This document shows positions 9,370 to 56,768 of a DNA stretch of 64,000 nt, in pieces; position 1 is the stretch's first letter; every line of letters starts with the position of its first letter. Both the position numbers and the translations under genes were made by a program. The notes below the pieces were generated by a model. It did not search any database and was not told the origin of the DNA. It saw only the letters and a list, made by a program, of their open reading frames with translations. The DNA is taken from contig NZ_PVTR01000011.1 of NCBI RefSeq assembly GCF_003003005.1, forward strand, positions 1 to 64,000, in the 5' to 3' direction. This DNA is from Mongoliibacter ruber. GTDB taxonomy: Bacteria; Bacteroidota; Bacteroidia; Cytophagales; Cyclobacteriaceae.

Positions 9370-9372
9370 AAT

Positions 9373-12210: not shown

Positions 12211-12232
12211 TGCAAACAAGGTTAAATCTTAA

Positions 12233-13713: not shown

Positions 13714-13715
13714 TT

Positions 13716-16377: not shown

Positions 16378-16405
16378 AATAGGTTCATAATAGATTTAAA
16401 AATTT

Positions 16406-17119: not shown

Positions 17120-17233
17120 CCTAAGATTTTTAAGGAATTTTTGATTTAGTAGTTACTATAGATTCAAAATGTACTGGAATCGATTTTTATCCCATTTAAT
17201 ATTTAATAGTTGATTTATATATTTTACTGATAA

Positions 17234-18625: not shown

Positions 18626-18627
18626 TT

Positions 18628-22945: not shown

Positions 22946-22974
22946 CCAGAAAATAAATTTAAAATTTACATAGT

Positions 22975-40243: not shown

Positions 40244-41629
40244 TTAAACATAAGGATTTTTCTTGCCAAAGGTTTGAATGGCATTTTGATCAATGGCATA
40301 AACGGCCATGGCACTCTGCACGAAGCCTTTTATCAGTTCGTCAATGCCAAGCCCCAACTGACCAAAATTCCTGATATCAAACAACATCAGCCTTTCGTCT
40401 GCATAGGTCCAGCCATCTTCTCCCTTAATGGACAGGTTGGTGCCGTATACTTCCCATGAGTTTTTGCCCTCTGGTAATGGTTCATTGAGTGGGAAACCGG
40501 ATCTTCTCGAATAGACGGCCAATGGACGCAGTCCCTCTGATGTGGCATGCATCATCAACCTCAAGTCAAAAGCGTAACTCCTGCCCTTAAAATCAGGAAT
40601 AGTTCCCACATGATACCACGACTTTGATTTATCTAAGCCTTCTTCATAGTTACTGTGAATCAACTGTTGCACAAGATAAAGATCATCTTTGGAGATTTGA
40701 GATAGGGCATACTCAAGTTCTTCTTCACTGACCACTGTATATACACCCTGTCCTGCATTGGAATCGGGTACTTTGATGACCATGCTTCCGCCGAGAATTT
40801 CTAAATATTTCTTCAATTCTTCATAGGGAACTTTGGTGAAAGTCTTTGGTGTGAAGATTCCGATACCCTTATCCTTGAATTTTTCATTGAAAACATCATA
40901 GGCTCCGCTTGCGACTTCTTTGTTTCTTCCTCCAGCCAGGCAAGCTTCGATTGGATTCAATATTAGCGTTTTGGGATTTTTTGGCAATCTTGTCCATGGT
41001 TCCTGTGTCACATAACGAAACGCGGCCCTGATCTCTTCCCATTTTTCTTTCTCATTTTTGACAAACATTTTGCCCTCTTCAAATTTTACAGGAGGCTCTT
41101 TGTCATCCTTGTCAAATTTGGCTAAAAACACATTTTCATCAAAAACATCCGCGATGGTGGCGGCATAACCTATGTTTTCCATGGGGTTTTTGTCATAAAT
41201 GACAGCCAAAGCTCCTCCTTCCTGATGTTGGTCCACCATAGGCTTAAAGGTCTTTTCTATCAGTCTTTTGTAGCCTCCCTGTTCCACGTTCAGATCAAGC
41301 AGCGGCATTGATTTTTGCCCTGATGGACAAGAATTGGTTTCAATTACAGTCAGTTTTCTATTTCCCTCATGGTTGGTAACATGCATCAGATCCGTACCCG
41401 CCCACCTGAAATAAGAGGGTTGATACTTCAGGATTTCCAAAATCGCTTCCTTGTCCGCTTTAGGATTGAGCCGTTGGTAGCGTTCGGTCATTTGTTCATG
41501 GGAGAGATTCAAAAAGTAGGATACCAAGGGATGTATATTGGAGTTCAACACCCGTGGGTACCAATGATCCGTAGGTTCAAAATCTCCCGGTTCTACTAAA
41601 TGTACATTTTTCGAAATGGATAGTTTCAT
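40244..41629 (-). CDS. ATP-grasp-like protein of unknown function
   Basis: 461 residues, cytoplasmic, no signal. The middle has ETNSCPSGQKSMPL (about 96-110) and SMVIKVPDSNAGQGVYTVVS (about 280-300), the latter resembling the ATP-grasp glycine-rich phosphate loop and its preceding strand; FDLRLMMH (about 360) matches the DLR motif that binds ATP and metal in such ligases. It may ligate a carboxylate to an amine. It stands in a minus-strand run: TauE/SafE, this gene, receiver domain, opposite arginine decarboxylase. Substrate unknown; the fold call is from motifs, not alignment. Confidence 0.65.
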   Translation of the reverse strand: MKLSISKNVHLVEPGDFEPTDHWYPRVLNSNIHPLVSYFLNLSHEQMTERYQRLNPKADKEAILEILKYQPSYFRWAGTDLMHVTNHEGNRKLTVIETNSCPSGQKSMPLLDLNVEQGGYKRLIEKTFKPMVDQHQEGGALAVIYDKNPMENIGYAATIADVFDENVFLAKFDKDDKEPPVKFEEGKMFVKNEKEKWEEIRAAFRYVTQEPWTRLPKNPKTLILNPIEACLAGGRNKEVASGAYDVFNEKFKDKGIGIFTPKTFTKVPYEELKKYLEILGGSMVIKVPDSNAGQGVYTVVSEEELEYALSQISKDDLYLVQQLIHSNYEEGLDKSKSWYHVGTIPDFKGRSYAFDLRLMMHATSEGLRPLAVYSRRSGFPLNEPLPEGKNSWEVYGTNLSIKGEDGWTYADERLMLFDIRNFGQLGLGIDELIKGFVQSAMAVYAIDQNAIQTFGKKNPYV

Positions 41630-41688: not shown

Positions 41689-42444
41689 CTAGCCCATTGA
41701 GGCCACAATTTCGCCTATGTAGTCTTTGTTTTTCCAAAGCATCAAAACCCCGCTAAGCACCATACTGGCTACTACTATTTTCCTGAAGAACAGCTCAGAA
41801 ATTTTGGCTAGAATCAATTTGCCGAAATACACCGCGATCATAGATGATACTCCTATCAGGATACCAAATTTGAGCACTTCACCTGTGACATAGCCATAAT
41901 ATGCGTAGCTGATGATTTTGGTGATATGTAAAATGATGGCATTTGCCGAGCGAGTTCCTAGCAAGGACTCCTTGCTGATACCATAATTGAGGTAAGCGGA
42001 ATTCATCAATGGACCAACACCTCCAATCAGACCTGAAAGAAAAGCAACCACAAGTCCCATAGGGGCAAAGTGCCATGCCTTTACTTTGAAGCCTGTTTTT
42101 TTCTCTTTCCTATTCCATTGAAAAATGGTGGACAGTAAGAGCAAACCGATAAGGATCTGCAAAAAGTCTGAAGAAAGGGCGGCAAACATCCTTGCGCCTA
42201 TAAGCGACCCAACTATGGTAGAGGGGAAGAGCCAGACGAAAAGCTTCCAGTCTATGTATTTCCAGAAAAAGAAGACTTTAGAAGTGCTACTCATTCCAAT
42301 ACTGATGGCCATAACAGGTGCGACGGCCTTTACACCAACCACTACTGCGACGATAGGCATCAATAAAAGACTGGCCCCACCACCAGTGAGGGTACTTAAT
42401 ATAAATACTATAAATGCTCCTATGAGCACTAAAATTAATTGCAT
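41689..42444 (-). CDS. TauE/SafE family sulfite-type exporter
   Basis: 251 residues with about eight membrane helices, two internal halves each containing a G-G/A rich turn (LTGGGASLLLMPIV and LSGLIGGVGPLMNSAYL), the hallmark of the TauE/SafE (DUF81) family. Members move sulfur-containing or organic anions across the inner membrane. It starts the minus-strand run and is 59 bases upstream of the ATP-grasp-like gene. Another TauE/SafE gene begins at the end of the window (63491). Confidence 0.88.
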   Translation of the reverse strand: MQLILVLIGAFIVFILSTLTGGGASLLLMPIVAVVVGVKAVAPVMAISIGMSSTSKVFFFWKYIDWKLFVWLFPSTIVGSLIGARMFAALSSDFLQILIGLLLLSTIFQWNRKEKKTGFKVKAWHFAPMGLVVAFLSGLIGGVGPLMNSAYLNYGISKESLLGTRSANAIILHITKIISYAYYGYVTGEVLKFGILIGVSSMIAVYFGKLILAKISELFFRKIVVASMVLSGVLMLWKNKDYIGEIVASMG

Positions 42445-42898: not shown

Positions 42899-44287
42899 AT
42901 GAATAATTACAAAGACCTCATACAGCAAACTTTCGATTTCCCTACCAAAGAATTTCATGTAGACAATAATGAGCTTCACTTCAATGGTGTCAATTTGATG
43001 GAAATCATCAAAACATACGGCACACCGCTGAAATTGAGCTACCTGCCCAAGATTTCGGAGAACATCCAAAATGCCAAAACCTATTTTGGCAATGCCATAC
43101 AGCAGCATAACTACAAAGGAAATTACACATACTGCTATTGTACCAAGTCATCGCATTTCAGTTTTGTCTTGGATGAGGCTTTGAAAAACGATATCCATAT
43201 CGAGACTTCTTCCACTTTTGATATTCCCTTGGTAAAGAGCCTCTATGAAAAAGGCAAAATATCCAAAGAAACCTACATTGTATGCAACGGCTTCAAAAGA
43301 GACCTTTACAAGCAATACATCACAGAATTGCTTAATGACGGTTTTGTGAATTGTATTCCTGTATTGGATAACCTTACCGAAATTGATTATTACCTCGAGC
43401 ACGTCAAGGTGCCATTTCAGGTGGGAATCAGGATTGCAGCAGATGAAGAGCCTAAGTTTGGTTTTTATACCTCAAGATTGGGGGTGCGGTACAATGATAT
43501 CATCAAGCTGTACGAAGAAAAAATCAAAGACAATCCTAATGTGAGTTTGAAGATGTTGCACTTCTTCATCAACTCAGGGATCAAAGATACAGCCTACTAT
43601 TGGTCTGAATTGACCCGTTTTATCCAGAAGTATGTAGACCTTAAAAAGATCGCCCCTAGCTTGGATACCATGGATATTGGCGGTGGATGGCCAATCAAGA
43701 CCAATGTCTTTTTTGACTATGACTACCAATATATGGCAGAACAAATTGTCAAAAATATCAAATGGATGTGCGCCAAAAATCATACAGATGAACCCAATAT
43801 CTTTACTGAATTTGGGAGCTACACAGTAGGGGAGAGCGGCGCAGTTTTGTATTCTGTTTTGGATGAAAAGCTGCAGAATGACAAAGAGTTATGGTATATG
43901 ATTGACGGCAGTTTTATCACCCAGTTGCCCGATAGTTGGGGGCTCAATCAGAAATACATCATGCTTGCTGTGAACAACTGGAATCAGGAATACCACAATA
44001 TCAACTTGGGAGGACTGACCTGTGACAGCATGGATTATTACAATTCAGAAGCCCATCAGTTTAATATCTACTTGCCCAAAGCCGAAACAGGCACGAAGCA
44101 ATATTTGGGATTCTTCCATACGGGAGCCTATCAGGAGTCACTTGGAGGTTATGGAGGGATTCAGCATTGCCTGATACCTGCGCCTAAGCACGTGATCATT
44201 GACAGGGAAAAAGACGGAAGCATCAAGCATTGGCTGTTTGCACCTGAGCAAAGTTCAGAAAGCATGATGAAGACTTTGGGGTATTAA
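42899..44287 (+). CDS. speA: Arginine decarboxylase (short Bacteroidota type)
   Basis: 462 residues, a fold type III PLP decarboxylase/alanine racemase-like enzyme. The Schiff-base lysine is in YCYCTKSSHFS (about 80-90), the phosphate-binding region in DIGGGWPIKTN, and late conserved EFGSYTVGESGAV and CLIPAPKHV. It matches the arginine decarboxylases of Flavobacteria/Cytophaga that start polyamine synthesis (arginine to agmatine). A related diamine decarboxylase specificity is possible. The gene has a promoter match and a strong terminator. No agmatinase or spermidine gene follows in the window. Confidence 0.8.
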   Translation: MNNYKDLIQQTFDFPTKEFHVDNNELHFNGVNLMEIIKTYGTPLKLSYLPKISENIQNAKTYFGNAIQQHNYKGNYTYCYCTKSSHFSFVLDEALKNDIHIETSSTFDIPLVKSLYEKGKISKETYIVCNGFKRDLYKQYITELLNDGFVNCIPVLDNLTEIDYYLEHVKVPFQVGIRIAADEEPKFGFYTSRLGVRYNDIIKLYEEKIKDNPNVSLKMLHFFINSGIKDTAYYWSELTRFIQKYVDLKKIAPSLDTMDIGGGWPIKTNVFFDYDYQYMAEQIVKNIKWMCAKNHTDEPNIFTEFGSYTVGESGAVLYSVLDEKLQNDKELWYMIDGSFITQLPDSWGLNQKYIMLAVNNWNQEYHNINLGGLTCDSMDYYNSEAHQFNIYLPKAETGTKQYLGFFHTGAYQESLGGYGGIQHCLIPAPKHVIIDREKDGSIKHWLFAPEQSSESMMKTLGY

Positions 44288-44292: not shown

Positions 44293-44322
44293 AAAAAGAG
44301 AGCTTATTTTGGCTCTCTTTTT
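44293..44322 (+). terminator. Rho-independent terminator after speA
   Basis: Arms AAAAAGAGAGC (44293-44303) and GCTCTCTTTTT (44312-44322) give an 11-bp stem with an 8-base loop and a T-rich tail. It may work on both strands. Confidence 0.85.
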
Positions 44323-44364: not shown

Positions 44365-44682
44365 ATGGGAAAGACTGTTATCATATTATTTCTTTTCAGT
44401 TTTATTTTATTTAGACAGGAAGACTGTGTGAAAATCACCTATTTGGAAAATAAACCTCAAGCCGAGGCTGATTTTAAGTATTTTCTCAAATACGGCAATG
44501 ATCAGTTGGATCAGGAAGAAATGATTTTGATTGAAGCAGAAGAAGATATTAAAAAATTTGCCCTTCAAAACAAGTACAGAGAAGTCGAAATTTATGTATT
44601 GGAAAAAAGAAGCGGTACGATAAGTACGGAGTCCGAATCAGGTGCTTTGGGATTTGTCAAATTGTTGGTTTCAATGAATTAA
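44365..44682 (+). CDS. Small secreted or membrane-anchored protein
   Basis: 105 residues with an N-terminal hydrophobic helix (MGKTVIILFLFSFILF) that could be a signal anchor, then an acidic, charged soluble part (DFKYFLKYGNDQLDQEE, AEEDIKKFALQNKY). No family recognised. It lies between the speA terminator and the first envelope module. A gap of about 225 bases follows. Coding status is moderately supported by codon structure. Confidence 0.55.
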   Translation: MGKTVIILFLFSFILFRQEDCVKITYLENKPQAEADFKYFLKYGNDQLDQEEMILIEAEEDIKKFALQNKYREVEIYVLEKRSGTISTESESGALGFVKLLVSMN

Positions 44683-44908: not shown

Positions 44909-46861
44909 ATGAAAAATTATTTATTGCTTTTGATGCTGTTTTGGTATGCCAATTCAGCAATTGGGCAGGAGAAATATTCAGGCGATTACACTTTTAATGG
45001 GTTAAGAGGAGAAGGCGAATTTGAGTTTGTAAAAGGAGAGGGTGACGCAATTCTCAAACAAGGTGAATTCAAGTTTATTCGCAAAGAGAGGGATATTGAA
45101 GATAAGACCATTTTTTACAGGACGGAAATATTTGGTTCATATGAGAAAGATCAAAAAACCGGAACTTGGAATTATAGAGAAGAAAAGCACAATGTACTTT
45201 TAGAGGATGTCAAAGATTTTAAATTAGAGTATGACATCAACAGCCAACAAATAATACTTAAAGCATCCTATTTAAATGGAGCCCCAGAGGGAAAATGGAT
45301 TTTTGAGGAGAATGAATATAGAGAAGGAGAGTTAAGAAAAAAGTCAGTAGTTGATGACCTTATTTTTGAAGAAGGTGACCTTAAAGGAAGGTTTCAATAT
45401 AGAACTTTTATCGATGATAGGTCCAATTTTATCCGTGGAGAATTGTTACCTGGAGGAGTAATGAATGGTGAATGGACATTTGTTTATCAGCAAGGGGATG
45501 TTTTAGTAAGTGAAGTAAGGAATTATGAAAATGGATTTCTCTTGGGATTGGTGAAGCGTAACCTTGAGACTGGTGAGAACCTTGGAGATTTAGTTTTTTT
45601 TCAGACTATAGCTAAGCTCAATAGGCTAAATAGTGGTGAGAAGGTTCCCTTTAGGATTGCTGATGAAAAGTCAGGAATATTTTTTAATGATGGAATTTTG
45701 GCTTCATCAGAACAATATCAAAAGCAAGTAGAAGCAAATATTTTTATTTCAGAGTTTCTCACAAATGTCTTGAGATATGATGAGTCTTTTGTAAACCAAG
45801 ATGGAGACTTAATAGAGTATCCGGTACACACCAGAAGATTTGTTTTTGACCTTAGTCGAACCCAACAAAAAGCGATTGAAGATTTACCTATTGAATTTGA
45901 TAGAATTAAAAGAATTGTCAGAGACTATTCCAATAGAAATAGTTTAAGGATAAATAGACAACGGTCAGATAGCTTGGCGTATGCCAATGCCTACTTTGAT
46001 TTCAGAGCTAAAAGACTTGAAGAATTTGAAGAGTTAATCGAACTTTTTAAGTCAAAAGAGATTCAGTATTACGATGTAGAATACATGGTTGAAACGGGAT
46101 TGCCATTTATTGAGGAAGTTGACAGAATAGAATACATATATGATGGAGATACTATTGTCAGAGAATTGGAATTTGACTTATCTGCTTTTGAACTTGGGTT
46201 TTATGAAGGAATGACTGATTATTTCACTCAGTTAGCAAGTTCTTTATTGAGTACAAAATCCTATGTAGATAATTCTTTATCCCAGATTGAAAGAGATTCA
46301 GACTTGAGGTCAATTGAAAACCAAATACAAGATAGAAAACTTTTATTGGACGAAATTTATATCAATACCGAAGGGATTGACGACAGAGATGCAGTGGTCC
46401 TTTTATCTGTTCATCAAAATATCCTGATTGAAGAATTTGAGAGCAAGCTGGAAGAATACAGTAAGCTCAATAGGTTCGCTGAGAAAAAAGAAAATGCTAG
46501 GATTATTTTGGATTTACTTGAAGATATGGAAGAACAGCATTCCAGACTTCAAACACTTCATGAAATTGTAGATAACCTTGATAAACTTTATCAAGAAGAA
46601 GTTTTTAATCCTTTTACCTATTCGAGATATGATCAGCGGGCCAAGTCAAGATTATATGAAGCTGCTGAGGTTCTAATAGAGCATTATTTTGAGTCAATTA
46701 AAAGTGAAAGAGATTATACACAAATAAAGATTTGGATTGACAAACTTGAATTATTGGATGTGAGAATGAGAGAGTTAAGAGAAGCAGATACACGTCGCCT
46801 AGAAAATAGGATCAATAGGAGAATGGATGTTAGTAGAATTGAGTCAATGCTTGATATATAA
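44909..46861 (+). CDS. Large secreted protein, module protein 1 (MORN-like plus helical)
   Basis: 650 residues, signal peptide (about 1-19, cleaved near AIGQ). The N-half (20-220) has repeated G-x-W-x-F/Y units (KTGTWNYREE, PEGKWIFEE, MNGEWTFVY) resembling MORN repeats, ending VRNYENGFLLGLVKRN. The C-half (300-650) is mostly helical with coiled-coil-prone stretches (QQKAIEDLPIEFDRIKRIV) and ends RRMDVSRIESMLDI. It is the first of three paralogues (also 48767 and 53476), each followed by a DUF2490 gene; they share the N-half units, YNxFL turn and C-terminal motif. Function unknown; periplasmic or outer-membrane scaffolding is plausible. Confidence 0.85.
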   Translation: MKNYLLLLMLFWYANSAIGQEKYSGDYTFNGLRGEGEFEFVKGEGDAILKQGEFKFIRKERDIEDKTIFYRTEIFGSYEKDQKTGTWNYREEKHNVLLEDVKDFKLEYDINSQQIILKASYLNGAPEGKWIFEENEYREGELRKKSVVDDLIFEEGDLKGRFQYRTFIDDRSNFIRGELLPGGVMNGEWTFVYQQGDVLVSEVRNYENGFLLGLVKRNLETGENLGDLVFFQTIAKLNRLNSGEKVPFRIADEKSGIFFNDGILASSEQYQKQVEANIFISEFLTNVLRYDESFVNQDGDLIEYPVHTRRFVFDLSRTQQKAIEDLPIEFDRIKRIVRDYSNRNSLRINRQRSDSLAYANAYFDFRAKRLEEFEELIELFKSKEIQYYDVEYMVETGLPFIEEVDRIEYIYDGDTIVRELEFDLSAFELGFYEGMTDYFTQLASSLLSTKSYVDNSLSQIERDSDLRSIENQIQDRKLLLDEIYINTEGIDDRDAVVLLSVHQNILIEEFESKLEEYSKLNRFAEKKENARIILDLLEDMEEQHSRLQTLHEIVDNLDKLYQEEVFNPFTYSRYDQRAKSRLYEAAEVLIEHYFESIKSERDYTQIKIWIDKLELLDVRMRELREADTRRLENRINRRMDVSRIESMLDI

Positions 46862-47692
46862 ATGATGATTGAATTAAAGTACGTCACACGCCTTTGCTTT
46901 ATTATATTGTTTTTAAGCAGTTTGTCAATAATTAATGTGCAAGCTCAAGAGGCTCCTGAAGTTCCTGAACGAGTCAATTTACCTGGGACTACTGAAAACT
47001 GGAATGGTCTGTATCTTAAGTTGAGAATGACTGATAAATGGTTTTGGTATCAGGAAAATCATTACAGGAGAAGAAATAGCGCAAACAATCCAAGGGACTT
47101 TGTAGGAAGGATGAGTCAGTTGTATAACAGGTTTGGTTTTACATACCTATTTACAGATAATTTTGAGGTCACCTTTGGACCTACCTTAGTGTGGAATTTT
47201 TCCCCAGATCGTGGGAATCCTGAATTTGTAGATTCCGTTCTTGAGCCAAGATTTTGGCACCAGTGGTTATTGACACAAGGTGTGGGTCCTATCAAAATCC
47301 TGCATCAATTTAGATTTGAGCACAGGTTTAAAAGAAACAATAATCTGGCAGCTGAATTTGATTATACAGACCGTTGGAGATATAAAATCACCGCTTATGT
47401 TCCTCTAAACAAACCGAGGATGGAGAATAAAACTTTTTTCATTGCTCCATCGAACGAATTTTTCTTTGAATCAGGGAAACAGGTGTGGAATATCTTTGAG
47501 GAAAATAGGGTCTACACAGCTATAGGATATACTTTAAACAATTATATGTTTTTTGGAGGACATATGTGGACTTATGGTCCAACTGCTTTGCCAGGTGTCT
47601 ACCGAAATAGGCATATAATTAGGCTAAATGTCATGTACACGATTGACTTTAGGGAAAGAAGAAGACCATTAACTAGAGATTTTGCATTTTAA
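46862..47692 (+). CDS. DUF2490 outer-membrane protein, module 1
   Basis: 276 residues with a signal peptide (cleavage near VQAQ, about 25-30) and a beta-barrel-like body: WFWYQENHYRRR, FGFTYLFTDNFEVTFGP, FRFEHRFKRNNN, YRNRHIIRLNVMYTIDF. The pattern of aromatic strands, Arg-rich turns and paired short strands is that of DUF2490. It directly follows module protein 1 (ATG after TAA). It is more divergent than the other two DUF2490 copies, which are closest to each other. Confidence 0.75.
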   Translation: MMIELKYVTRLCFIILFLSSLSIINVQAQEAPEVPERVNLPGTTENWNGLYLKLRMTDKWFWYQENHYRRRNSANNPRDFVGRMSQLYNRFGFTYLFTDNFEVTFGPTLVWNFSPDRGNPEFVDSVLEPRFWHQWLLTQGVGPIKILHQFRFEHRFKRNNNLAAEFDYTDRWRYKITAYVPLNKPRMENKTFFIAPSNEFFFESGKQVWNIFEENRVYTAIGYTLNNYMFFGGHMWTYGPTALPGVYRNRHIIRLNVMYTIDFRERRRPLTRDFAF

Positions 47693-47703
47693 TAACATTA
47701 CGA

Positions 47704-48183
47704 ATGTCGAAGGTGATTAAGGAAATTTTGTTAGTTTTTATTTTTTCAACTCTTTTGTCTACGGCTTATGCTCAATACAAAGATCAGGTAAGAGTTTACC
47801 ATGGATACGAATGGCCTAGTGAAACCTGGTTTTACGGGATAAATTTTACTGGGGAATTTTTCCCCATCAATTATTTTTCAATAGCGCCTTCATTTACCCT
47901 ATTTGTTCCATCTACGGGTAATGCAAGGGCTTATGACATCAATGCCAGGTATTATTTTACTGAAAAAGAAAGACAGTGGTATGGCACTTTTGGATATGGA
48001 CACTATACAAGAGTTTATGAATTTAATCCAATAGGAAGGATTTCAACCAACTCTGTAAACATTGGAGGCGGTGGTGTCTTTAAAATCAATGATGAAATAG
48101 GTATTAATCCAGAAATCAGGTACCAACCCATTCAAAGAAATGAAATGATTTTTAAAATTTCAATATTGTATTTTGTGAATTGA
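47704..48183 (+). CDS. Small outer-membrane barrel protein
   Basis: 159 residues with a signal peptide (TAYAQ cleavage, about 24). The body is all aromatic/beta (ETWFYGINFTGEFFPINYFSIAPSF, ARYYFTEKERQWYGTFGYG) and ends with the strand-like MIFKISILYFVN, suggesting an eight-stranded barrel. It belongs to the first module operon (11 bases after the DUF2490 gene). Family not recognised. Confidence 0.65.
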   Translation: MSKVIKEILLVFIFSTLLSTAYAQYKDQVRVYHGYEWPSETWFYGINFTGEFFPINYFSIAPSFTLFVPSTGNARAYDINARYYFTEKERQWYGTFGYGHYTRVYEFNPIGRISTNSVNIGGGGVFKINDEIGINPEIRYQPIQRNEMIFKISILYFVN

Positions 48184-48253
48184 TTGAAGGCCTTTGATTA
48201 GCTTTAAAAGGGATCTAATAGGTCAAATAGATTGCTATTTTGTTCTCAAGTAT

Positions 48254-48595
48254 CTACTGATCGTTATTTACCAACTCATACCTTAATATTGTTCGGTTAC
48301 TTGTATTGATGATGAATTTCACTGCTTCAGCAGTATCGTAAGGAGATGAACCATCATCATTGGTAGCTGTAGATCTTGATCCAGTCGTGCCGGGAAATTT
48401 ACTATCAAAACGGTCGTAAGTCCATATTGTATACATTCCCTCAGTTTCTATCTGATCAGGATCTCCCCATTTTTCAATCAATTCATTTGCATTTGCGCCA
48501 ATCCACTGGCTAAGGGCCTTTCGGTTAGACATGCAGCTTAAAACGAGTAAGCAAGAGACAATGATTAGAGCTAGATTAAGTTTAGTAGTTTTCAT
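48254..48595 (-). CDS. BamE/SmpA-like lipoprotein
   Basis: 113 residues. Lipoprotein signal with Cys21 in VLSCMSNR; the mature part contains IGANANELIEKWGDPDQIE and YTIWTYDRF, the turn-strand pattern of BamE/SmpA/OmlA lipoproteins (K..E.. G.P....W.Y). A role in outer-membrane protein assembly would fit the barrel-rich neighbourhood, but it is antisense to it and short. Assignment rests on motif similarity. Confidence 0.6.
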   Translation of the reverse strand: MKTTKLNLALIIVSCLLVLSCMSNRKALSQWIGANANELIEKWGDPDQIETEGMYTIWTYDRFDSKFPGTTGSRSTATNDDGSSPYDTAEAVKFIINTSNRTILRYELVNNDQ

Positions 48596-48621
48596 TTTTT
48601 TGGTACTTTTTATCCTTTTGG

Positions 48622-48629
48622 CAAATTTA
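48622..48629 (-). promoter_or_regulatory. -7 element of the BamE-like gene
   Basis: On the minus strand TAAATTTG matches TAnnTTTG, about 27 bases before the ATG at 48595; no clear -33 word. Confidence 0.4.
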
Positions 48630-48766
48630 TTGATGCCAAAATCGTGAAAATTAAATTAAAATAAGTCATCCCAATTCAAAAAACAGTAGTCTAATTAGTT
48701 TAGCTATTTCCAATTTTAGGTAAAATTTAAACCAAATAAAGCTAATATAACATTAATTGAACATAT

Positions 48767-50773
48767 ATGAGATTTTATTTATTCTTTGTTTTTCTGTTAG
48801 TGTTCACATCAAATATTGTACTTGGCCAGCAAAAAAAACAAGAAGTTTTTGAGGGAAGTTTCTTTCTCAAGGAGCATGAAGAGGGAAAGGTTAGATATGG
48901 TTTTTATCGGAATGAAGATGATGAAAAAGTGTTTCATGGCAATTTTTCCTTTTCATCTGAAAATTTAGATAGTTTAGATAATTTTTTCCAAAGAAAAATC
49001 ACTGGGACATATGCTGATGGATTAAAAAATGAAAAGTGGGTTTATCAGAATAATATTTTTAAAATAAATATCAGCACGGTTAATGACAGGTTTCAAGTTC
49101 AGTCTACTGCCGATGGCATTGTTCAAAAACTTGAGGCATCCTATAAGGACGGGAAAGCTGTTGGGATTTGGAGACTGGAAGAACATAAAGTAGAAAGTAG
49201 CCAACAGAAGGACCGAAAAATTTTGATGATAGCCAACTTTGAAGATGGCAGGATGATCGATAATTTTTTGTTTGACGGTTATCTTCATGGGAATAAAACA
49301 AAAGTTACGGGGAGATTCAGTAAAGACCAATTTTTTGATGGAGAATGGGAGTTTTCTTACACCAAGGATTCAGCCGAGTTTTATGAAAAAAGAGTGTATG
49401 ATAATGGGTTTTTAACTTCAATATTACAAAAAGACCTTACTAATAATGTTTCTTTTCATGATATCGAACTTACCAGGGTAGAAAAAAAATTGAGTAATGT
49501 CAAAAGAGGTCTTGATGATATTGACTATACCATAGGGAAAGATTTCTTTGGAGTTGGGTTTGATGATGGTTTCCCGTTTTTCAGTGAAGAAGCAATCTCC
49601 CAGAAATACGGAAATGATGTTTTAAACGAAATATTTTCTTTGTTCATTGAAAGGGAATACGTGGCAGGCTTGGATCTCGATGGTATAGAGAAACTTCGTC
49701 CAGGCGGCACAAGAAGGTTTGAATATACTTTTACAGGTAAAGAGAAAGAGGCATTGGAGGAAAGCGAAACACTTCTTGCAAACTATACTTCTGATTTGGA
49801 AAAATTTGTAAATAATACGACTCTATCTTTAAATAGGCAAAAAACAGATTCCTTGTCCTTTTCTTTTAGACTTGCTCAAAACATTCTCAATAATTTTAAA
49901 ATTTTGGAAGATAATATTGAATTGCTTAAAAGTGAAAGTTTTAAGTATCAAAGTAAAAGAACCTACTACAGGTCTGGGATAGAAGGAATCGAAAAGGTTG
50001 ATACAGTACGGTATACTTTTGATGGGGAAGAAAGAAAACGTATCATAGAAAATCCTGTAGATTTTTCAATTAGTGATGATGTTGTGTTTAATATCAGAAA
50101 CTATGTTCAGGCAAAAGGAAAAATTGTTGACCAACTCGATCTTTACTTCAAGGATATGATCATTGAAATTGAAAGGGATATGGTATCTCAACAGCTTGAA
50201 GAAGATCTTATAAATAGTATTCAAAAAGTTTCAGACACTTATGACATTGAAAGAGGGGTCGAAGGCATAGATGAAGAAGGTATTGTCCTTACAAGATTCC
50301 ATGTATCCATGTATCAGAATTACCAAAGGAAATTGGATTTGATGATGCAGGAATATAGTACGGTCGAAGGGTTTGAAGACAAACAAGAGAAGGGATTGGA
50401 AATCATTAACATGGCCCAAACCTACTACGAAGCATATTACCCTATTGGCGAAGTGAGAAAAAGACTACAACAATTGGATGAAGCTTACACCAAAATATCA
50501 TACAATCCTTATATGGACAGGCATGATATCAAAACAAGAGTTAAGAGAAATATCTATTTCGCGGCAGTTGATTATCTTCTGCCTGATTATAGAGAGAGAA
50601 TAATAAATGTAGATGATTTTAGAGAATTACCTGATTTGATTGATGAAATGAACGACGCATTTGATAGCCTGATTGAAATTGCCAATAAACCCGATAGTGA
50701 GACCAGGTCTATGGAGAGGAGATTAAGAAGAGAATCCAATCCTAGCAGAATTAAGAGAATTATTGATCTATAA
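48767..50773 (+). CDS. Large secreted protein, module protein 2 (MORN-like plus helical)
   Basis: 668 residues, signal peptide 1-22. N-half repeats (NEKWVYQNN, AVGIWRLEEHKVE, FDGEWEFSYTKD) then VYDNGFLTSILQKD; the long C-half is helical, ending ERRLRRESNPSRIKRIIDL. It is a paralogue of 44909-46861 and 53476-55467. It starts a compact operon of seven genes: module protein 2, DUF2490, lipoprotein, two barrels, module protein 3 and DUF2490, with gaps from about 4 to 70 bases. No catalytic residues recognised. Confidence 0.85.
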   Translation: MRFYLFFVFLLVFTSNIVLGQQKKQEVFEGSFFLKEHEEGKVRYGFYRNEDDEKVFHGNFSFSSENLDSLDNFFQRKITGTYADGLKNEKWVYQNNIFKINISTVNDRFQVQSTADGIVQKLEASYKDGKAVGIWRLEEHKVESSQQKDRKILMIANFEDGRMIDNFLFDGYLHGNKTKVTGRFSKDQFFDGEWEFSYTKDSAEFYEKRVYDNGFLTSILQKDLTNNVSFHDIELTRVEKKLSNVKRGLDDIDYTIGKDFFGVGFDDGFPFFSEEAISQKYGNDVLNEIFSLFIEREYVAGLDLDGIEKLRPGGTRRFEYTFTGKEKEALEESETLLANYTSDLEKFVNNTTLSLNRQKTDSLSFSFRLAQNILNNFKILEDNIELLKSESFKYQSKRTYYRSGIEGIEKVDTVRYTFDGEERKRIIENPVDFSISDDVVFNIRNYVQAKGKIVDQLDLYFKDMIIEIERDMVSQQLEEDLINSIQKVSDTYDIERGVEGIDEEGIVLTRFHVSMYQNYQRKLDLMMQEYSTVEGFEDKQEKGLEIINMAQTYYEAYYPIGEVRKRLQQLDEAYTKISYNPYMDRHDIKTRVKRNIYFAAVDYLLPDYRERIINVDDFRELPDLIDEMNDAFDSLIEIANKPDSETRSMERRLRRESNPSRIKRIIDL

Positions 50774-50783
50774 TTTATTTTAA

Positions 50784-51665
50784 ATGAAGTTTAATTTAAA
50801 AGTAGCAGTATTTGCACTCTGCACGGTATTTTGTTGTCATACCAGTTCTTTTTCTCAGATTCTAGATGAAGAAGCTTCAGTATATCGGCCTGACAGAAGG
50901 ATGTTGGATCAAAGGGTCTATTATACGAAATTCATTTTCTTGGACTATCTCTCTGAGTCAAAAACATGGTTTTATTATTTTGATATTATCAATAGAAGGC
51001 AAAGTGGTCTAACCAACAATAATTTTGTTGAGCAACCATTGAGGACAAGTGCCAGGTTTTTTATCGCTTATCAATTTGGGAGGTTTACCCGGGTCCATTT
51101 CAATCCAATAGGTCTTTATGTAAGTGATCCAAGACAAGGGCAACCTTCTGATGTCAACTTGATAGGAAACAGGGAATACGAATTACGAAGCATGCTGGAG
51201 ATCACCCAAGATGCATATATTAAAAAGGCTGGTAAGGAGTGGGTAAATATGACTCACAGGTGGCGTTTTGAAAGTAGGTGGAGGGGTGTAGATGAACCTA
51301 TGGGGCCAACATGGAATTATAGGTTAAGACAAAGGACTAGATTTAGGGTGCCACTTAACGGAAAGCATTTCTATGATAATAATGTTCTCTATACCACCAA
51401 CTACCATGAAATGCATATAGAGTTAGGTCCGAGATTTGGACTTAACCATTTTGCTCAAAATAGAAATTTTGTAGGGTTAGGTTATCGGTTTTGGGATTGG
51501 GCAAGAATAGATGTGGGATATATTCACCAGTATAACTTTAGGGGAGACGGGAGAACAATAGATATGACTAGAGGTCCGATGTTTTATTTCTTTGTAGACT
51601 ACTTTTCAAAGTTGAGAATCGGGAGAGATAACCGAGATAGGTTAGAAAATATCATCAATAATTGA
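50784..51665 (+). CDS. DUF2490 outer-membrane protein, module 2
   Basis: 293 residues, signal peptide (SSFSQ cleavage, about 27). Signature strands of DUF2490: THRWRFESRWRG, YRLRQRTRFRVPLNGK, NFVGLGYRFWDWARIDVGYIHQYN, ending with a short aromatic strand. It is close in sequence to the DUF2490 at 55482 (shared RFESRWRG, NYVGxGYRFWxWxRIE). It is 10 bases downstream of module protein 2. A barrel of about ten strands in the outer membrane is likely. Confidence 0.8.
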   Translation: MKFNLKVAVFALCTVFCCHTSSFSQILDEEASVYRPDRRMLDQRVYYTKFIFLDYLSESKTWFYYFDIINRRQSGLTNNNFVEQPLRTSARFFIAYQFGRFTRVHFNPIGLYVSDPRQGQPSDVNLIGNREYELRSMLEITQDAYIKKAGKEWVNMTHRWRFESRWRGVDEPMGPTWNYRLRQRTRFRVPLNGKHFYDNNVLYTTNYHEMHIELGPRFGLNHFAQNRNFVGLGYRFWDWARIDVGYIHQYNFRGDGRTIDMTRGPMFYFFVDYFSKLRIGRDNRDRLENIINN

Positions 51666-51674
51666 GAATCTTTT

Positions 51675-52067
51675 ATGCTTAAGTACGCAATTAGGATAGT
51701 ATTCATTTTGGTTTCTTCGTCGATTTTATCAACATCTTGTACAAACATTCTTGATTTTGAGGAAGCAACACCTTGTCCATGGCTACAGGATTTTGAACAA
51801 GTAAGGGTTTGGAATTCAGTTGATGGATTGGTAAGATTTGATACTGTAAGAGAAGAATACTTTATAGTAGCTAGATTTCCTGGTGATGACAGTTTATCAG
51901 TTCTTAGAGCCTGTAATATTCCGTCAGAATATTTATCAGATAGGGCGTTAATCAGGTTTTTTGGAAATGAGTATCTGCCTTTATTCGAGGAATTCATTGA
52001 AGAAGAAGATAAATTGGCCCAAATTGTTCCATTTGAAATTACTTATATTGAAACCGTCCGAAAGTAA
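51675..52067 (+). CDS. Small lipoprotein
   Basis: 130 residues with a lipoprotein signal (LSTSC, Cys22). The mature chain is short, acidic and helical at the end (YLPLFEEFIEEEDKLAQIV); residues 33-36 contain a TPCPW motif. No family recognised. It sits in the module operon between a DUF2490 gene and two barrels, 9 bases after the former and 7 before the next start. Confidence 0.6.
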   Translation: MLKYAIRIVFILVSSSILSTSCTNILDFEEATPCPWLQDFEQVRVWNSVDGLVRFDTVREEYFIVARFPGDDSLSVLRACNIPSEYLSDRALIRFFGNEYLPLFEEFIEEEDKLAQIVPFEITYIETVRK

Positions 52068-52074
52068 GATTGAA

Positions 52075-52704
52075 ATGAGATTTACAAAGTTTATAGTTTT
52101 AGTTTTCGTTTTAATTGTTATGTCTGGACTGGAAGCCATAGGACAGGGATTTGGGGTAAGGTTGTCTCCTAATTATCGTGTTGGCGGAAATGTCAAAACC
52201 CCTTCAGGAATAGTAATGCCAATGGAGGATTTTAGTTTTCAGACCTCACTCCATTATAAATTCGAAAATGGCCTGATGCTGGACGCCACCTATATAGGTG
52301 GTCCAACGTCGATTAAATACAAACCATTGAAGTGGGAGCCATGGGAAAATTTAGGAGAAGCTCAAGTGAGATCCTTTATGATGGGGGTATTTTATGAAAG
52401 AAATGACAATGACCCCGCAGTGATGCCTTATGGAGGAGTTAGATTGGGGAATTTTGCTGTAAATTCTCTAAATCCTGATTTTGAATCTTTTAATAAATTT
52501 GCATTTAGTATAGAAGGAGGAATTAAAATACCTTTCTCACCTCACTTTGGATTCTTTACACATGTAAATGTACTGGCTCCAATCCAATTTGGAGAAGGAG
52601 AGATTTTTAGAAACAGAACAGGAGAATATGACTTTACAGCAAGTCCTGGTTTGATTTTATTTCAGTTCAACCTAGCATATGGAATATATTTCCAATTGTA
52701 TTGA
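52075..52704 (+). CDS. Outer-membrane beta-barrel protein
   Basis: 209 residues from ATG 52075, which gives a normal signal peptide (MRFTKFIVLVFVLIVMSGL). Longer upstream frames overlap the lipoprotein gene and lack signal character. Mature part: FGVRLSPNYRVGGNVKTPSG, FSFQTSLHYKFENGLMLDATYIG, LILFQFNLAYGIYFQLY (C-terminal strand ending in an aromatic residue, then stop). It resembles the 8-stranded porin-like family; function unknown. Confidence 0.7.
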   Translation: MRFTKFIVLVFVLIVMSGLEAIGQGFGVRLSPNYRVGGNVKTPSGIVMPMEDFSFQTSLHYKFENGLMLDATYIGGPTSIKYKPLKWEPWENLGEAQVRSFMMGVFYERNDNDPAVMPYGGVRLGNFAVNSLNPDFESFNKFAFSIEGGIKIPFSPHFGFFTHVNVLAPIQFGEGEIFRNRTGEYDFTASPGLILFQFNLAYGIYFQLY

Positions 52705-52707
52705 TTC

Positions 52708-52738
52708 GTTAAAGGAATAAATAAGTATTACCTTTAAC
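52708..52738 (+). terminator. Weak hairpin between barrel genes
   Basis: Arms GTTAAAGG and CCTTTAAC (8 bp, 15-base loop) follow the stop at 52704 and are followed by TTTAAA, not a long T-run. It could be a weak terminator or a processing hairpin inside the operon. Confidence 0.35.
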
Positions 52739-52773
52739 TTTAAATCTAGTAACCCCACACAAGATTAAGCTCT

Positions 52774-53472
52774 ATGTTAGATCAATACTGGTGTACATCC
52801 AAATTTAAATTAATTGAGATTATTTTGATTATTTTTATTTTATTTCCTGTTTCAGGTTTTTCTCAGGAAGAAGATCAAGAAATTGAAGAAACTGAAAATA
52901 TCCTTGATCTTTCAAATTTGCCTTATTTTCTAAATGATGTCATGATCATCGGGGGGGTCAATTCTAGCGGAATTTATTGGAGTAATCATTTTCGGGATCT
53001 AACTATGGCTGGTGGTTTCAATTTAGGGCTTGAAGGATTTATACCTTTGGGTCAAGTCAGCTTTATTGATTATGGAGTACATTTTGCGCAACGAAATTTT
53101 AGGCATAGTCAACAAAATATTTTAATAAAAAACAACCACCTCGATTTTCCCCTTTATGTTTCTTTTATGTTACCAGAACTCCGAACGATTGATTGGAGAT
53201 TTTTTCTAGGCACACAGTTTAGTTATAGGCTTTCAAGTAATTTGAGTGAGAATTATAGTCCTTTTATTATGAATGATTTTCAGTATGATCCTCAGCGATT
53301 TAATCGCTTCGATACAGGCATGACTTTCGGTCTAAGTGGAGAAGTGGGGAATTTCTTTTTTAGGGCAAGATCCTATGTAGGGGTAAGTAAACTAGACAGA
53401 GCGGAACAAGGGGCTATGTTTTCAATGATGCTAGAAGGTGGATATTTTCTATTTAGAAATTACAGGAGGTAG
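52774..53472 (+). CDS. Outer-membrane beta-barrel protein
   Basis: 232 residues with a hydrophobic N-terminus (IIEIILIIFILFPVSGFSQ) as signal peptide and an acidic linker (EEDQEIEETEN). The body is strand-rich (GGFNLGLEGFIPLGQVSFIDYG, NNHLDFPLYVSFMLPELR) and ends MLEGGYFLFRNYRR. It looks like the PorT/OmpA-N-type barrel families of Bacteroidota but is not specifically recognised. Module protein 3 starts 4 bases after its stop. Confidence 0.65.
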   Translation: MLDQYWCTSKFKLIEIILIIFILFPVSGFSQEEDQEIEETENILDLSNLPYFLNDVMIIGGVNSSGIYWSNHFRDLTMAGGFNLGLEGFIPLGQVSFIDYGVHFAQRNFRHSQQNILIKNNHLDFPLYVSFMLPELRTIDWRFFLGTQFSYRLSSNLSENYSPFIMNDFQYDPQRFNRFDTGMTFGLSGEVGNFFFRARSYVGVSKLDRAEQGAMFSMMLEGGYFLFRNYRR

Positions 53473-53475
53473 ATA

Positions 53476-55467
53476 ATGGTAAAAAAAGCAATAAATATCT
53501 TTTGGTTTTTCTTTATTCTGGTGCAGGCTAATGGCCAAAATCTTCAAATGGTTGAAAGAGATACCATATACTTAGAAGAATTTTTAGGTATAGAGAAGGT
53601 GCAATATTATATGGATGATACTCTTTTTGTAAAGCAGGGCAACTATGATTTCATCTCCCAACTGTATAATCAATTGCTTTCAAATTCAATCAGAAAGTTA
53701 CAAATAAATGGTAAGTATCAGGAAAATCGATTCCATGGTCAATGGGAATATAAGCTTTCGGATTTGGATTTGGATATCAAATCTTTAACCGAAGGAAGAT
53801 CTATGGGTTTAGAGTATCTTCTAAATGGAATCGAAAGAAGTGCAAAGTTTAATTATTTGAATGGCATACCAGAAGGGAATTGGATGATTGAGGTTGTTAC
53901 AATTAAAGACAACAGAAGATTACCAGAAACGAATGGAGGAAACTTCACTTTTAAAAATGGGATTGCAGTAGGTGAATTTAAATTCGATGATCTTCAAGGT
54001 AAAAATTTTCTAAGAGGTAATCTAAACGATGAAGGATTTTTTGATGGTGACTTGATTCTAAGGTATATCAATAATGGAGATGAAATTAAAGAATCACGGG
54101 TCTATAGAGATGGGTTTTTATTAAAACTTAATAAGTTTAATGAAACAGCAGGTACGGTAGATGTAGATATCGCTTATGAAGATGTAATTCAAAAATTAGA
54201 AGATTCAGATGGGCAGATTCAAGAAATTGACTTTAGAATCAGCGAAGAAGGTTTTGGAGTGCTTTTTCAAAATGGCTACACAGAGATTGATGAAAAATTA
54301 ACCGAACAGGTTGAAGGCAATTCTATACTGGATAATATTTTATACAGGTTTAATAGATTTTCAGAGGGTTTAACAGACGAAAGAGAAGATCCTGCTTTTA
54401 AATTGACCCGAAGATTTAAGTTTGTATACCCTGAAGAAGAAGAAAGATTGATCAGAAGCGTGCAGCCAAGACTTAATATCATGTTGGATGAATACAATGA
54501 CTTTTTAAGTAATGCCAAGTTTATCCTGAACCGAGATAGAATTGACAGTCTGCCCTATATTTTTGGTTTTATAGACCATGCCCGTAGAAAGTCTCAGGAC
54601 ATGCTGGAGGTAATTGAATTGACCGAAGAGGGCTTTTTTGATTTTCTTTATAGACCAAACTATTATCCAAATGGTCTACCAAATCTGAATCAGGCAGATA
54701 GTTTTACCTATGAGGAAGCCGGTGTAGAAAAAGAAGCAACATTTGATTTGGGGATTTATGTTGATTCTCCGCACAGGTTGATGGAACAGATAGAAGCATT
54801 CACAGATACCTTGAAGCAACGGACTGATGAATACTTAGACTACTCTTTTATGGAAATCAGGATTTTTGACGAACAAGCTACAATTGATAGTTTGGATAAT
54901 CAGATTGTCCAGCTAAAAACAAGAGCTGACGCGATGTACTCCTTTCTACAGGTTATTCCTGAAGACCGCACTTTCGAAGAAATGCCACTGGATTATAGAA
55001 TTTACCGTGTGATTCATAACAATACCCTTCAGAGACTTCAGAATGAATACCTTGATGCAGAAGATTATGATGAAAAAGTAAGGTTGGGTAAGGAGCTGAC
55101 CTGTATGCTGGATTATCTGATCAACCAACATGATGAAATCCTCTTCATTGAAAATATGCCAGAGCGGCTTGACAAAGAATTCACCAGATTTTCCCCAAAC
55201 CCATTCTTTGAAAGGGATATAGAGACTAAGATATTACCTGCCATATATGGCAAAGGGACTGGGCCATTGTTCAATGCCTATGCTGAAAATCTGTTCGAAT
55301 CCCGAAACTGTAAGGATTTGCAAAACAACTTGGAGAAATTCCGGAAACTAGAAAACAGACTGAAGGAATTGGTGAAAAGAAGCGATACCGAAGAAGTGGT
55401 GAGACTTGACCGTGCCTTGAGGAGAGAAAACATTCCAAGTCGAATTGAAAGATTATTGAACCTGTAG
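53476..55467 (+). CDS. Large secreted protein, module protein 3 (MORN-like plus helical)
   Basis: 663 residues, signal peptide 1-19. N-half units FHGQWEYKLSD, PEGNWMIEVVTI, FDGDLILRYIN, then VYRDGFLLKLNKFN; helical C-half; end LRRENIPSRIERLLNL. It is a paralogue of the two proteins at 44909 and 48767. It is directly followed by a DUF2490 gene (14 bases). The conserved C-terminus (R-R-x-x-x-x-SRI-x-x-x-L) in all three suggests a shared partner or export signal. No known family. Confidence 0.85.
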   Translation: MVKKAINIFWFFFILVQANGQNLQMVERDTIYLEEFLGIEKVQYYMDDTLFVKQGNYDFISQLYNQLLSNSIRKLQINGKYQENRFHGQWEYKLSDLDLDIKSLTEGRSMGLEYLLNGIERSAKFNYLNGIPEGNWMIEVVTIKDNRRLPETNGGNFTFKNGIAVGEFKFDDLQGKNFLRGNLNDEGFFDGDLILRYINNGDEIKESRVYRDGFLLKLNKFNETAGTVDVDIAYEDVIQKLEDSDGQIQEIDFRISEEGFGVLFQNGYTEIDEKLTEQVEGNSILDNILYRFNRFSEGLTDEREDPAFKLTRRFKFVYPEEEERLIRSVQPRLNIMLDEYNDFLSNAKFILNRDRIDSLPYIFGFIDHARRKSQDMLEVIELTEEGFFDFLYRPNYYPNGLPNLNQADSFTYEEAGVEKEATFDLGIYVDSPHRLMEQIEAFTDTLKQRTDEYLDYSFMEIRIFDEQATIDSLDNQIVQLKTRADAMYSFLQVIPEDRTFEEMPLDYRIYRVIHNNTLQRLQNEYLDAEDYDEKVRLGKELTCMLDYLINQHDEILFIENMPERLDKEFTRFSPNPFFERDIETKILPAIYGKGTGPLFNAYAENLFESRNCKDLQNNLEKFRKLENRLKELVKRSDTEEVVRLDRALRRENIPSRIERLLNL

Positions 55468-55481
55468 TTACTCAAACCTAG

Positions 55482-56282
55482 ATGAAGAAAGTTTTAATTT
55501 TAACATTTATATCCCTCTTTTTAGGTGTTGCGCATACATTTGCACAGGAGGATGAATTGGAATTTCTGGATAACAGAATGATGTATACCAAATATTATGT
55601 TTCTGATTTTTTCAACGACACCACCAAGTGGGCTTGGGAAGCAGATGTAGTGTATAGAAGGCAGAGTCAATTGGGTCAAGGTGATATTTGGGATGCTCCT
55701 CTAAGACTGAGTATCAGGCCTTGGATTGCCTATCAGTTTACCAAGTTGACCCGAGTAAGTTTGAACCCGATGGGGATATTTTATTCAGCTCCAAGATATC
55801 CATTGGAATCTGACCTCGACAGGCCCTTTGAAAGGGAAATGAGAACTACCTTGCAGATCAACAATTATGTGTATTACAACCGTTTTAATTTCACGCACAG
55901 GCTGAGATTTGAGTCCAGGTGGAGGGGAATAGATGGGGATACAAGACCTAATCACAATTGGCGGGTGCGCTATAGATTAAGAACCAGAATACCGCTTAAC
56001 ACAGATTATTTTTACACCAACAACACCTGGTATATTTCCCAATACTCCGAAATGCATGTTGAATGGGGGAGGGATTACGGTACGAATTTCTTTTCACAAA
56101 ACAGAAATTATGTAGGTATAGGATATAGGTTCTGGGAGTGGACCCGAATAGAATTAGGCTATATCGTTCAGCTCAATACCAGAGGAAACAACAGGCAAGT
56201 TGATTTGTCTCAAGGGCCAATGTTTTACCTGTTTATGGATGTCTTAAGTAAAAATAAGAGAAGGTATAATTATAGTTTTTAG
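55482..56282 (+). CDS. DUF2490 outer-membrane protein, module 3
   Basis: 266 residues, signal peptide (AHTFAQ, about 21). Strands FTHRLRFESRWRG, RVRYRLRTRIPLNTDYFY, NRNYVGIGYRFWEWTRIELGY and the end FYLFMDVLSK. Very similar to the copy at 50784. It closes the seven-gene operon. Confidence 0.8.
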   Translation: MKKVLILTFISLFLGVAHTFAQEDELEFLDNRMMYTKYYVSDFFNDTTKWAWEADVVYRRQSQLGQGDIWDAPLRLSIRPWIAYQFTKLTRVSLNPMGIFYSAPRYPLESDLDRPFEREMRTTLQINNYVYYNRFNFTHRLRFESRWRGIDGDTRPNHNWRVRYRLRTRIPLNTDYFYTNNTWYISQYSEMHVEWGRDYGTNFFSQNRNYVGIGYRFWEWTRIELGYIVQLNTRGNNRQVDLSQGPMFYLFMDVLSKNKRRYNYSF

Positions 56283-56768
56283 ATATGAAGTAGAAATACG
56301 GTATAAATACAGTAGAAATATAATGGAAATAGGGCTTAGAGCTCAATAGAAATGAGGTTCTCTTTTTTTAAGTTACGGCCATAGAATCCATTTGCTGGCA
56401 AAGGTGGTGCGTTATCCGAAGGTTGCACCTTCGGAATTATGATTCTTGAGCTTATAGCTCAAAAAGGTATTAAAAGTCCGTTTACGACAGTACCACATCC
56501 ACAATCCGCCCAATCACAATTAATCGATTCTACAATCACTAATACCCTCACCCCCAACCCCACTCCCTTAATGGAGAGGGGAGAAACCCTCTGTTTAGAG
56601 TTCTTTTGTAGTTGGAAATACAACAGGAATAATCTCTAGGGAATAGATCATCTAAGACCCCAAAGCGGTCAAATGTTAATAACCTCGGGTTTCAACCCCA
56701 CTCACAACGACGAAATCTTCTGCACCGACAATCCGCGCAACCTTTAACATTTCCAAACCTTTGCCCCC
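56283..56768. repeat. Repeat island after the module operon
   Basis: 11-bp-type words (56285-56330), the hairpin ATCCGAAGGT / ACCTTCGGA at 56413, a perfect CCCCACTCC-like / GGAGAGGGG pair, and a partial copy of the ~190-bp composite (56657-56697). The block 56405-56640 is a near copy of 31000-31235. No gene. Confidence 0.75.

Follow-up and report, generated by a model that had tools for sequence, protein, structure and literature searches.

Recurring pairs of a MORN-like exported protein and a DUF2490 barrel in Mongoliibacter ruber: a possible outer-membrane channel with a periplasmic partner

Introduction

What does an outer-membrane barrel of a family without an established function do when it is encoded three times, each time directly behind a large exported protein? 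The question is raised by a locus of Mongoliibacter ruber (Cyclobacteriaceae), in which positions 44,909 to 56,282 of a stretch of 64,000 nucleotides (positions 1 to 64,000, forward strand, of contig NZ_PVTR01000011.1, assembly GCF_003003005.1; hereafter the window, meaning the whole stretch analyzed) carry three exported proteins, named here M1, M2, and M3, and three DUF2490 barrels, named B1, B2, and B3. DUF2490, or TCDB 1.B.81, is described as a putative family of porins with no established functions, in a passage that names no partner (PMC4827864). The reading favored here, held at a probability of roughly 0.45, is that B is an anion-selective outer-membrane channel and that M, or a third protein found in relatives and named N, is its dedicated periplasmic partner of the MORN type.

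A conserved M-B gene pair

The three pairs lie on the forward strand: M1 (44909..46861, 650 amino acids (aa)) with B1 (46862..47692, 276 aa), M2 (48767..50773, 668 aa) with B2 (50784..51665, 293 aa), and M3 (53476..55467, 663 aa) with B3 (55482..56282, 266 aa). A preliminary description of the locus, made from the sequence alone, had given these positions, which match the listing of open reading frames (ORFs) exactly, and had reported a DUF2490 barrel gene behind each M. All three barrels do belong to the family, scoring 98.7, 65.9, and 92.0 bits for B1, B2, and B3 against the gathering score of 29.8 for Pfam DUF2490 (PF10677; E 4.4e-28, 5.2e-18, and 5.2e-26); B3 is 43% identical to B2. M1-M3 are diverged paralogues over nearly their full length, with 23-25% identity and BLASTP E values of 4e-33 to 2e-42 (M2 against M1, 1.6e-42; M3 against M2, 6.6e-38). 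The closest named match to M1 is from Arthrospiribacter ruber at 75% identity, and none of the three reaches the cut-off of a Pfam or NCBIfam family.

Matches to an M profile occur in 74 of 245 genomes sampled from the family, 26 of 291 from the order, and 12 of 395 from the phylum, where four are weak or partial. In six-frame scans, B stands directly downstream of M on the same strand in 31 of 35 M segments, the three of the window counted; the exceptions are one M in locus L046, the M of L052, L060, in which the barrel lies 1.6 kb on, and the weak match L063. One of the paired segments, L062, is a decayed remnant: at 6694-8106 of that locus, an M3-type unit has an ORF that fuses a barrel-like start to the end of M, followed by a truncated DUF2490 ORF. 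Among named genomes, a set that overlaps in part with the genomes of the 35 segments, B directly follows 35 of 36 M segments, and the exception (L081) ends at a contig edge. Outside the order, B is present at all four strong M matches and at none of the three weak ones. The family sample provides 85 places, derived from 88 M rows by dropping two second fragments (G700:C18:20548 and G749:C4:2211) and a weak match (G731:C94:8397), and B lies within 400 bases of M at 79 of them. The six places without B are G752, at a contig edge, G731:C135, with no barrel in the next 3.3 kb, and four weak or partial matches.

The counts in the family sample and at the strong matches outside the order show that M and DUF2490 do not stand together by chance but make up a genuine, conserved unit. 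The outcome that would have undone the preliminary description, namely that DUF2490 genes of relatives never adjoin this protein family, is contradicted by the recurrence of the pair. No description of the unit, with or without N, was found in the literature searched, which was covered mostly by titles and in some cases by passages. The M-B partnership is read here from adjacency, and M and B might be conserved neighbors without any physical partnership; that they stay adjacent in several orders and with differing genes around them makes this very improbable.

N, a third partner with canonical MORN repeats

The known layouts are M-B, B-N, and M-B-N; the last occurs at each of the four loci outside the order and at several within it. 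N is a protein of ~295 aa that opens with a hydrophobic stretch, continues with a middle part judged helical by eye, and then has canonical MORN repeats; all five N proteins scanned match Pfam MORN (PF02493; E 4e-18 to 4e-25). B lies directly upstream and on the same strand of 35 of 36 N genes, at a spacing of -157 to +287 bases, the exception being L059, in which N is divergent beside M. These 36 genes comprise 11 from stretches fetched for M, six from stretches fetched for B, and 19 picked by N alone; in the last group, B is present in 19 of 19, in L133 only as weak fragments. For 25 of the 36, the stretch fetched holds no M. Conversely, the family sample has 93 close homologues of B: 79 follow M, five stand with N, two come a short way behind an M-B pair as second barrels, and seven are without M and N. 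These two sets of counts make B the common element of this DUF2490 branch and a MORN-type protein its usual partner.

In 34 of the 36 N proteins, the N-terminal stretch has the hydrophobicity expected of a membrane anchor; a second such stretch occurs in none, and positive charge is greater before than after the stretch in 24. Judged by these features, N looks membrane-anchored, probably in the inner membrane, with true MORN repeats. The preliminary description had proposed a periplasm-spanning complex; N, the one candidate inner-membrane partner to emerge, was not found in the genome of M. ruber, whereas, as a control, long N matches occurred in 11 of the 33 genomes searched together. Near DUF2490 genes without M or N in L122, L123, and L124 lies a convergent gene for a secreted protein of ~610 aa; inspection by eye suggests MORN-like repeats in the proteins of L122 and L123, and those of L122 and L124 match the N profile weakly.

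Predicted folds of B and M

An AlphaFold2 model of B1 (mean predicted local distance difference test (pLDDT) 85.1; predicted template modeling score (pTM) 0.74) has 11 strands and a short edge bridge at residues 38-39. With Foldseek by itself, neither the M1 nor the B1 model had a match below 0.001, and the fold matches used here come from a second look with VIA. The solved structures nearest to the B1 model are NanC and VhGalP (both Z 15.1), PcoB (14.7), and KdgM (14.0), from which B1 is predicted to be a 12-strand barrel of the NanC/KdgM fold. KdgM is a 12-strand channel specific for acidic sugars (PMC4849052). The monomeric KdgM and NanC resemble B in predicted strand number, in fold (Z 14-15), and in a conserved charged face, whereas the Pfam scan gives B1-B3 no match to the KdgM family model at E up to 1, only DUF2490 reaching its cut-off; because of this, B is likened to KdgM in its working and not filed as KdgM. 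Neither KdgM nor NanC is known to have a dedicated MORN partner.

A large protein with a signal peptide directly upstream of a 12-strand barrel also recalls a secretion pair, with B as the translocator that would carry M out to the cell surface in the manner of a split autotransporter or a two-partner system. The autotransporter barrels NalP, BrkA, and EspP match the B1 model at Z 13.1-13.7, but NanC, VhGalP, PcoB, and KdgM score somewhat higher (Z 13.9-15.1). B1, a lone barrel of 276 aa, is too small to accommodate POTRA domains as well, and no POTRA model matches B1-B3; nor is a passenger fused to the barrel, M and B being separate ORFs in all 59 pairs of the set used for trees. DUF2490 is also found without M or N, and the 25 N genes with B but no M nearby encode a protein that looks membrane-anchored. 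Export of M by B is improbable on these grounds.

The M1 model (mean pLDDT 89.9, pTM 0.66) was built from a 37-row alignment of 34 of the 36 M segments from named genomes together with the three of the window. It shows ~14 strands in residues 20-229, forming a MORN-like sheet, and is mostly helical over residues 231-647, where the longest predicted helix runs for 55 residues (431-485). The N-terminal half matches MORN1 and radial-spoke MORN proteins at VIA Z 9.3-9.6 with a root-mean-square deviation (rmsd) of 5.7-7.5 Å, the best three rows having Z 9.6 (MORN1) with 173-184 residues aligned at rmsd 6.2-6.7. This is counted here as a MORN fold for M1, with the reservation that the rmsd is large and that OspA, a single-layer sheet protein, also reaches Z 8.6. 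The MORN-like and helical halves that the preliminary description had assigned to all three proteins are thus seen in the model and fold comparison of M1 and extended to M2 and M3 by homology. MORN-like denotes a fold and not a sequence family, because none of the 37 M members matches Pfam MORN at E up to 0.01. For the helical half, a designed repeat protein (8tm9, Z 6.7) and Embp (6gv5, Z 6.0) are weak matches below the level that the tool calls meaningful for helical repeats, and a sequence search of M against solved structures found no convincing relative, the best hit being a carboxylesterase stretch at E 0.012.

A MORN-type sheet is shared by M1 with proteins that stand between two membranes, junctophilin-2 (Z 7.7) and a protein of the TIC complex (8z9y_D, Z 5.6), although a Z under 8 may reflect a common arrangement only; these proteins are eukaryotic or plastid, with no homology to M shown. 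Literature searches for MORN repeats with the outer membrane and Bacteroidetes, and for chloroplast TIC and MORN, gave no papers, and no bacterial MORN-porin system turned up in the literature searched, mostly titles. MORN repeats are often assumed to bind lipids, and the sheet might accordingly hold phospholipid or lipopolysaccharide with B as the outer-membrane station, but the paper that reports this assumption comes to the view that the repeats serve as modules for protein-protein interaction (PMC7725318). The barrel face is moreover highly charged, and no lipid-transport family was matched in the Pfam scan, so a role in lipid handling is very improbable.

A conserved charge network in the barrel

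On the polar face of the B strands, conserved charged residues number 12 arginines, eight glutamates, three lysines, two histidines, and one aspartate, against three arginines, one glutamate, and four histidines on the opposite face; conserved means the same residue in at least 70% of 35 sequences, and the more polar face of each strand was taken as inward. R90, R130, R155, R171, R173, R216, and E199 are kept in 84 of 84 DUF2490 sequences (59 paired with M, 22 paired with N, and three others). The network extends to 57 further DUF2490 sequences from the phylum sample, which retain the arginines R69 in 51, R90 in 46, R130 in 54, R151 in 49, R155 in 56, R171 in 56, R173 in 57, and R216 in 54, and the glutamates E128 in 55, E153 in 57, and E199 in 56. 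OprP, a phosphate channel said in the title of a reference to carry an "arginine ladder", offers a likeness in the selection of anions by arginines, the mechanism proposed for B. The two differ in build: OprP is a 16-strand trimeric channel (PMC4849052), whereas DUF2490 is modeled with 12 strands.

A network with near-equal arginine and glutamate would also suit a structural tether, in which B is a closed barrel anchor with a salt-bridge core and M and N join the outer membrane to peptidoglycan or the inner membrane, with no transport. The hydrophobic stretch of N, the predicted 55-residue helix of M1, and the absence of clear transport genes from the scanned M-B or B-N loci are consistent with such a tether. 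In Fusobacterium nucleatum, proteins with MORN or MORN-variant (YwqK) repeats are reported to co-purify with FtsX and EnvC, which act at the cell wall, and this envelope link, as given in passages of PMC5915739, leans toward the tether. Against it, the closest folds to B are substrate-specific porins, some DUF2490 genes elsewhere belong to oxyanion gene sets without M or N, and M is accessory, to judge from its occurrence in the family sample. A purely structural role is rather unlikely.

Gene contexts of other DUF2490 barrels

DUF2490 was detected in 51 of 148 genomes of a phylum sample at E 1e-10. Sixty regions, mostly higher-scoring, were hand-picked from 102 rows, with known M or N places and the genome of the window excluded; three in which no DUF2490 ORF was called (L178, L182, and L215) were left out of the neighbor count, and one of the 57 that remain (L211) has an N-like ORF beside the barrel. 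The 114 immediate neighbors include Sulfate_transp (3), carbonic anhydrase (3), TauE (2), PBP_like_2 (2), and NIR_SIR (2), and anion-type neighbors fall in eight of the 57 loci. On the sulfate and bicarbonate side, the order carbonic anhydrase-DUF2490-SulP occurs twice, SulP once, and carbonic anhydrase once; the rest are sulfite reductase-DUF2490-siroheme/TauE fusion, twice, with gaps of -7 to 3 bases, and a phosphate-type binding protein, twice. As a control, none of the 112 outermost genes of the same regions matches these anion-type proteins by BLASTP, with the qualification that these genes are shorter than the neighbors (mean 259 versus 400 aa) and that the Pfam table of control genes covers 25 of 151 families. 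Such an anion-type gene is found anywhere in 11 of the 60 regions; an NCBIfam scan of the neighbors was uninformative.

Chromate genes provide a further context. DUF2490 of L132 lies between ChrB_C-like ORFs and Chromate_transp, an assignment made by eye in which Pfam confirms two ORFs. This barrel, an unpaired DUF2490 of the window's genome, and B1 were compared with a plasmid collection, in which ten distinct records matched and eight were read. DUF2490 stands directly beside chrA in two plasmid regions, beside carbonic anhydrase in one, where chrB/chrA follow ~3 kb on, and beside an inorganic phosphate transporter in one. M1, checked for a mobile origin, has no match in the plasmid collection, and none of ten proteins matches an anti-phage defence system in PADLOC. 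A table of the iron stimulon of B. thetaiotaomicron lists DUF4956 with DUF2490 (PMC10434189). The unpaired DUF2490 of the window's genome (L064, 7719-8471) lies near a DctM TRAP gene, beyond which are ORFs resembling KDPG aldolase, KDG kinase, and altronate dehydratase, as named by eye.

Three types of pair and their surroundings

Trees of 59 M-B pairs were built with FastTree and midpoint-rooted, supports not being weighed; duplicates among 75 segments had been collapsed, and five lacked B. The pairs of the window define types 1, 2, and 3, with matching groups in the M and B trees, and types 2 and 3 are sisters in both. The proposal of three specialized versions in the preliminary description fits these three M types with three matching B types; in their deeper branches, the two trees disagree. 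Within type 1, the barrels have mostly diverged less than the M proteins they go with, at 77-79% versus 45-49% identity in one set; for the closest relative, the values are equal (B 76%, M 75%). A mirror-tree correlation of r 0.68, where 1000 permutations reached no more than 0.28, was set aside as proof of co-evolution, for a shared species history could produce it as well.

Small barrels track the types, with cluster c3 after B1 (10 loci), c0 near M3 (five), and c28 with the M2 unit (two). In the window, types 2 and 3 share a compact run of seven genes on one strand, M2-B2-lipoprotein-barrel-barrel-M3-B3, just as first described, with gaps of 1-69 bases if the first small barrel starts at the ATG at 52069. 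The middle genes, all on the forward strand, encode a lipoprotein-like protein (51675..52067, 130 aa, lipobox by eye, no Pfam match), a small barrel of 211 aa (52069..52704; OMP_b-brl at E 6e-05, below cut-off), and one of 232 aa (52774..53472; OMP_b-brl_2, E 7.7e-12) that belongs to c0 and recurs beside M3-type pairs, the five loci including the window. M1, B1, and a small barrel-like protein of 159 aa (47704..48183, forward strand; OMP_b-brl weak and below cut-off, E 0.0015; c3, the window being one of the 10 loci) form a separate unit. This unit is parted from M2 by an opposite-strand ORF (48254..48595, 113 aa, lipoprotein-like by eye), a homologue of which lies near the M2-type pair of L038. 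M1 is preceded by a forward-strand ORF of 105 aa (44365..44682) without a Pfam match; it belongs to cluster c8 (six members including the window), and its homologues precede M in other genomes. Hairpin-terminator-like sites flank the cluster just before (44293-44322) and just after (56415-56435), such sites being no commoner than in shuffles (eight observed, 8.4 expected). A Bacteroidetes-type promoter motif occurs once in the window, outside the M-B cluster.

Farther out, an arginine decarboxylase-like gene (42899-44287; cluster c2, 10 loci) precedes M1 and its relatives, and in a locus of another order (L109, 3531-4931) an ORF similar by eye follows M-B-N. A polyamine link was not built on, because a hairpin lies between this gene and M1 and many loci lack the gene. 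TauE/SafE-type genes flank the region at ~2.5 and ~7 kb (41692-42444 and 63491-64000, the second cut by the window end), with homologues ~3 kb from M in L036, L038, L039, and L046. A 461-aa protein without a Pfam match is encoded at 40244-41629; in L036 and L046, its homologues adjoin the TauE gene that lies close to M. A surface-glycan cluster at 7675-24225, of which seven genes were scanned, includes an ABC ATPase, Polysacc_synt_2, a DegT aminotransferase, NeuB (13716-14747), and a glycosyltransferase. NeuB enzymes produce sialic-type acids; that B1 has the sialic-acid porin NanC as its nearest fold is possibly a coincidence.

Weighing the proposed channel and its partner

Several observations weigh against an anion-selective channel with a MORN partner. 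Seven of the 93 close B homologues lack both M and N. The split between inward and outward charges is partly circular, since the polar face was set by hydrophobicity, although the conservation of the residues is not. Glutamates are nearly as many as arginines, and the network could be a closed salt-bridge core. By profile, M and N show no homology (hhalign probability 1.8), and fold class is what a common docking mode would rest on. In the trees, deeper M and B branches conflict, the M proteins of L047, L049, L050, and L051 grouping with type 1 and their barrels elsewhere. The oxyanion classes were partly named after the neighbor table had been seen, and 49 of the 57 loci have no anion-type immediate neighbor, as 49 of the 60 regions have no such gene at all. 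Four of the eight plasmid regions read show no anion gene near DUF2490, and the plasmid contexts are not independent, because three of the other four came from the chromate-linked query. The scanned M-B and B-N loci hold no matches to SulP, carbonic anhydrase, ChrA, Pit, sulfite reductase, or phosphate-binding proteins; only six of 745 ORFs match the key set, all of the TauE type and 2.5-7 kb from M or B (458 and 287 ORFs from two locus sets, some loci being in both, with the named loci L065-L094 outside the scan). For this reason, the anion claim for B1-B3 draws on their fold and family-shared residues and not on their own neighbors.

The favored mechanism may be put as follows. B would be a 12-strand DUF2490 outer-membrane channel, and the arginine/glutamate network on its inner wall would select negatively charged solutes, by analogy to KdgM and NanC with acidic sugars and OprP with phosphate. 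The MORN-like sheet of M would dock either at the periplasmic opening of B or on a protein next to it, and the helical half would extend toward the inner membrane and act as a strut, gating, positioning, or tethering the channel. Elsewhere, in other lineages, N would serve this barrel, alone or together with M, so that the channel could be linked to the inner membrane. The lineage of the window would have lost or never gained N and has three matched M-B versions accompanied by small accessory barrels of their own.

A broader proposal, which we hold to be doubtful, is that DUF2490 is a general porin family for oxyanions and acid solutes, one branch of which became a trans-envelope device, M or N plugging or gating the arginine-lined channel and coupling it to the inner membrane or cell wall.

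Significance

If the broader proposal is true, the device would be a kind of regulated porin equipped with a periplasmic actuator, and no described counterpart of it was found among the titles and passages searched. The pairing with M or N would give an outer-membrane channel a dedicated periplasmic MORN partner, an arrangement likewise not met in those sources. For DUF2490 at large, the gene contexts and the conserved charge network provide a concrete and cheap hypothesis, namely that this widespread family may consist of oxyanion-selective porins.

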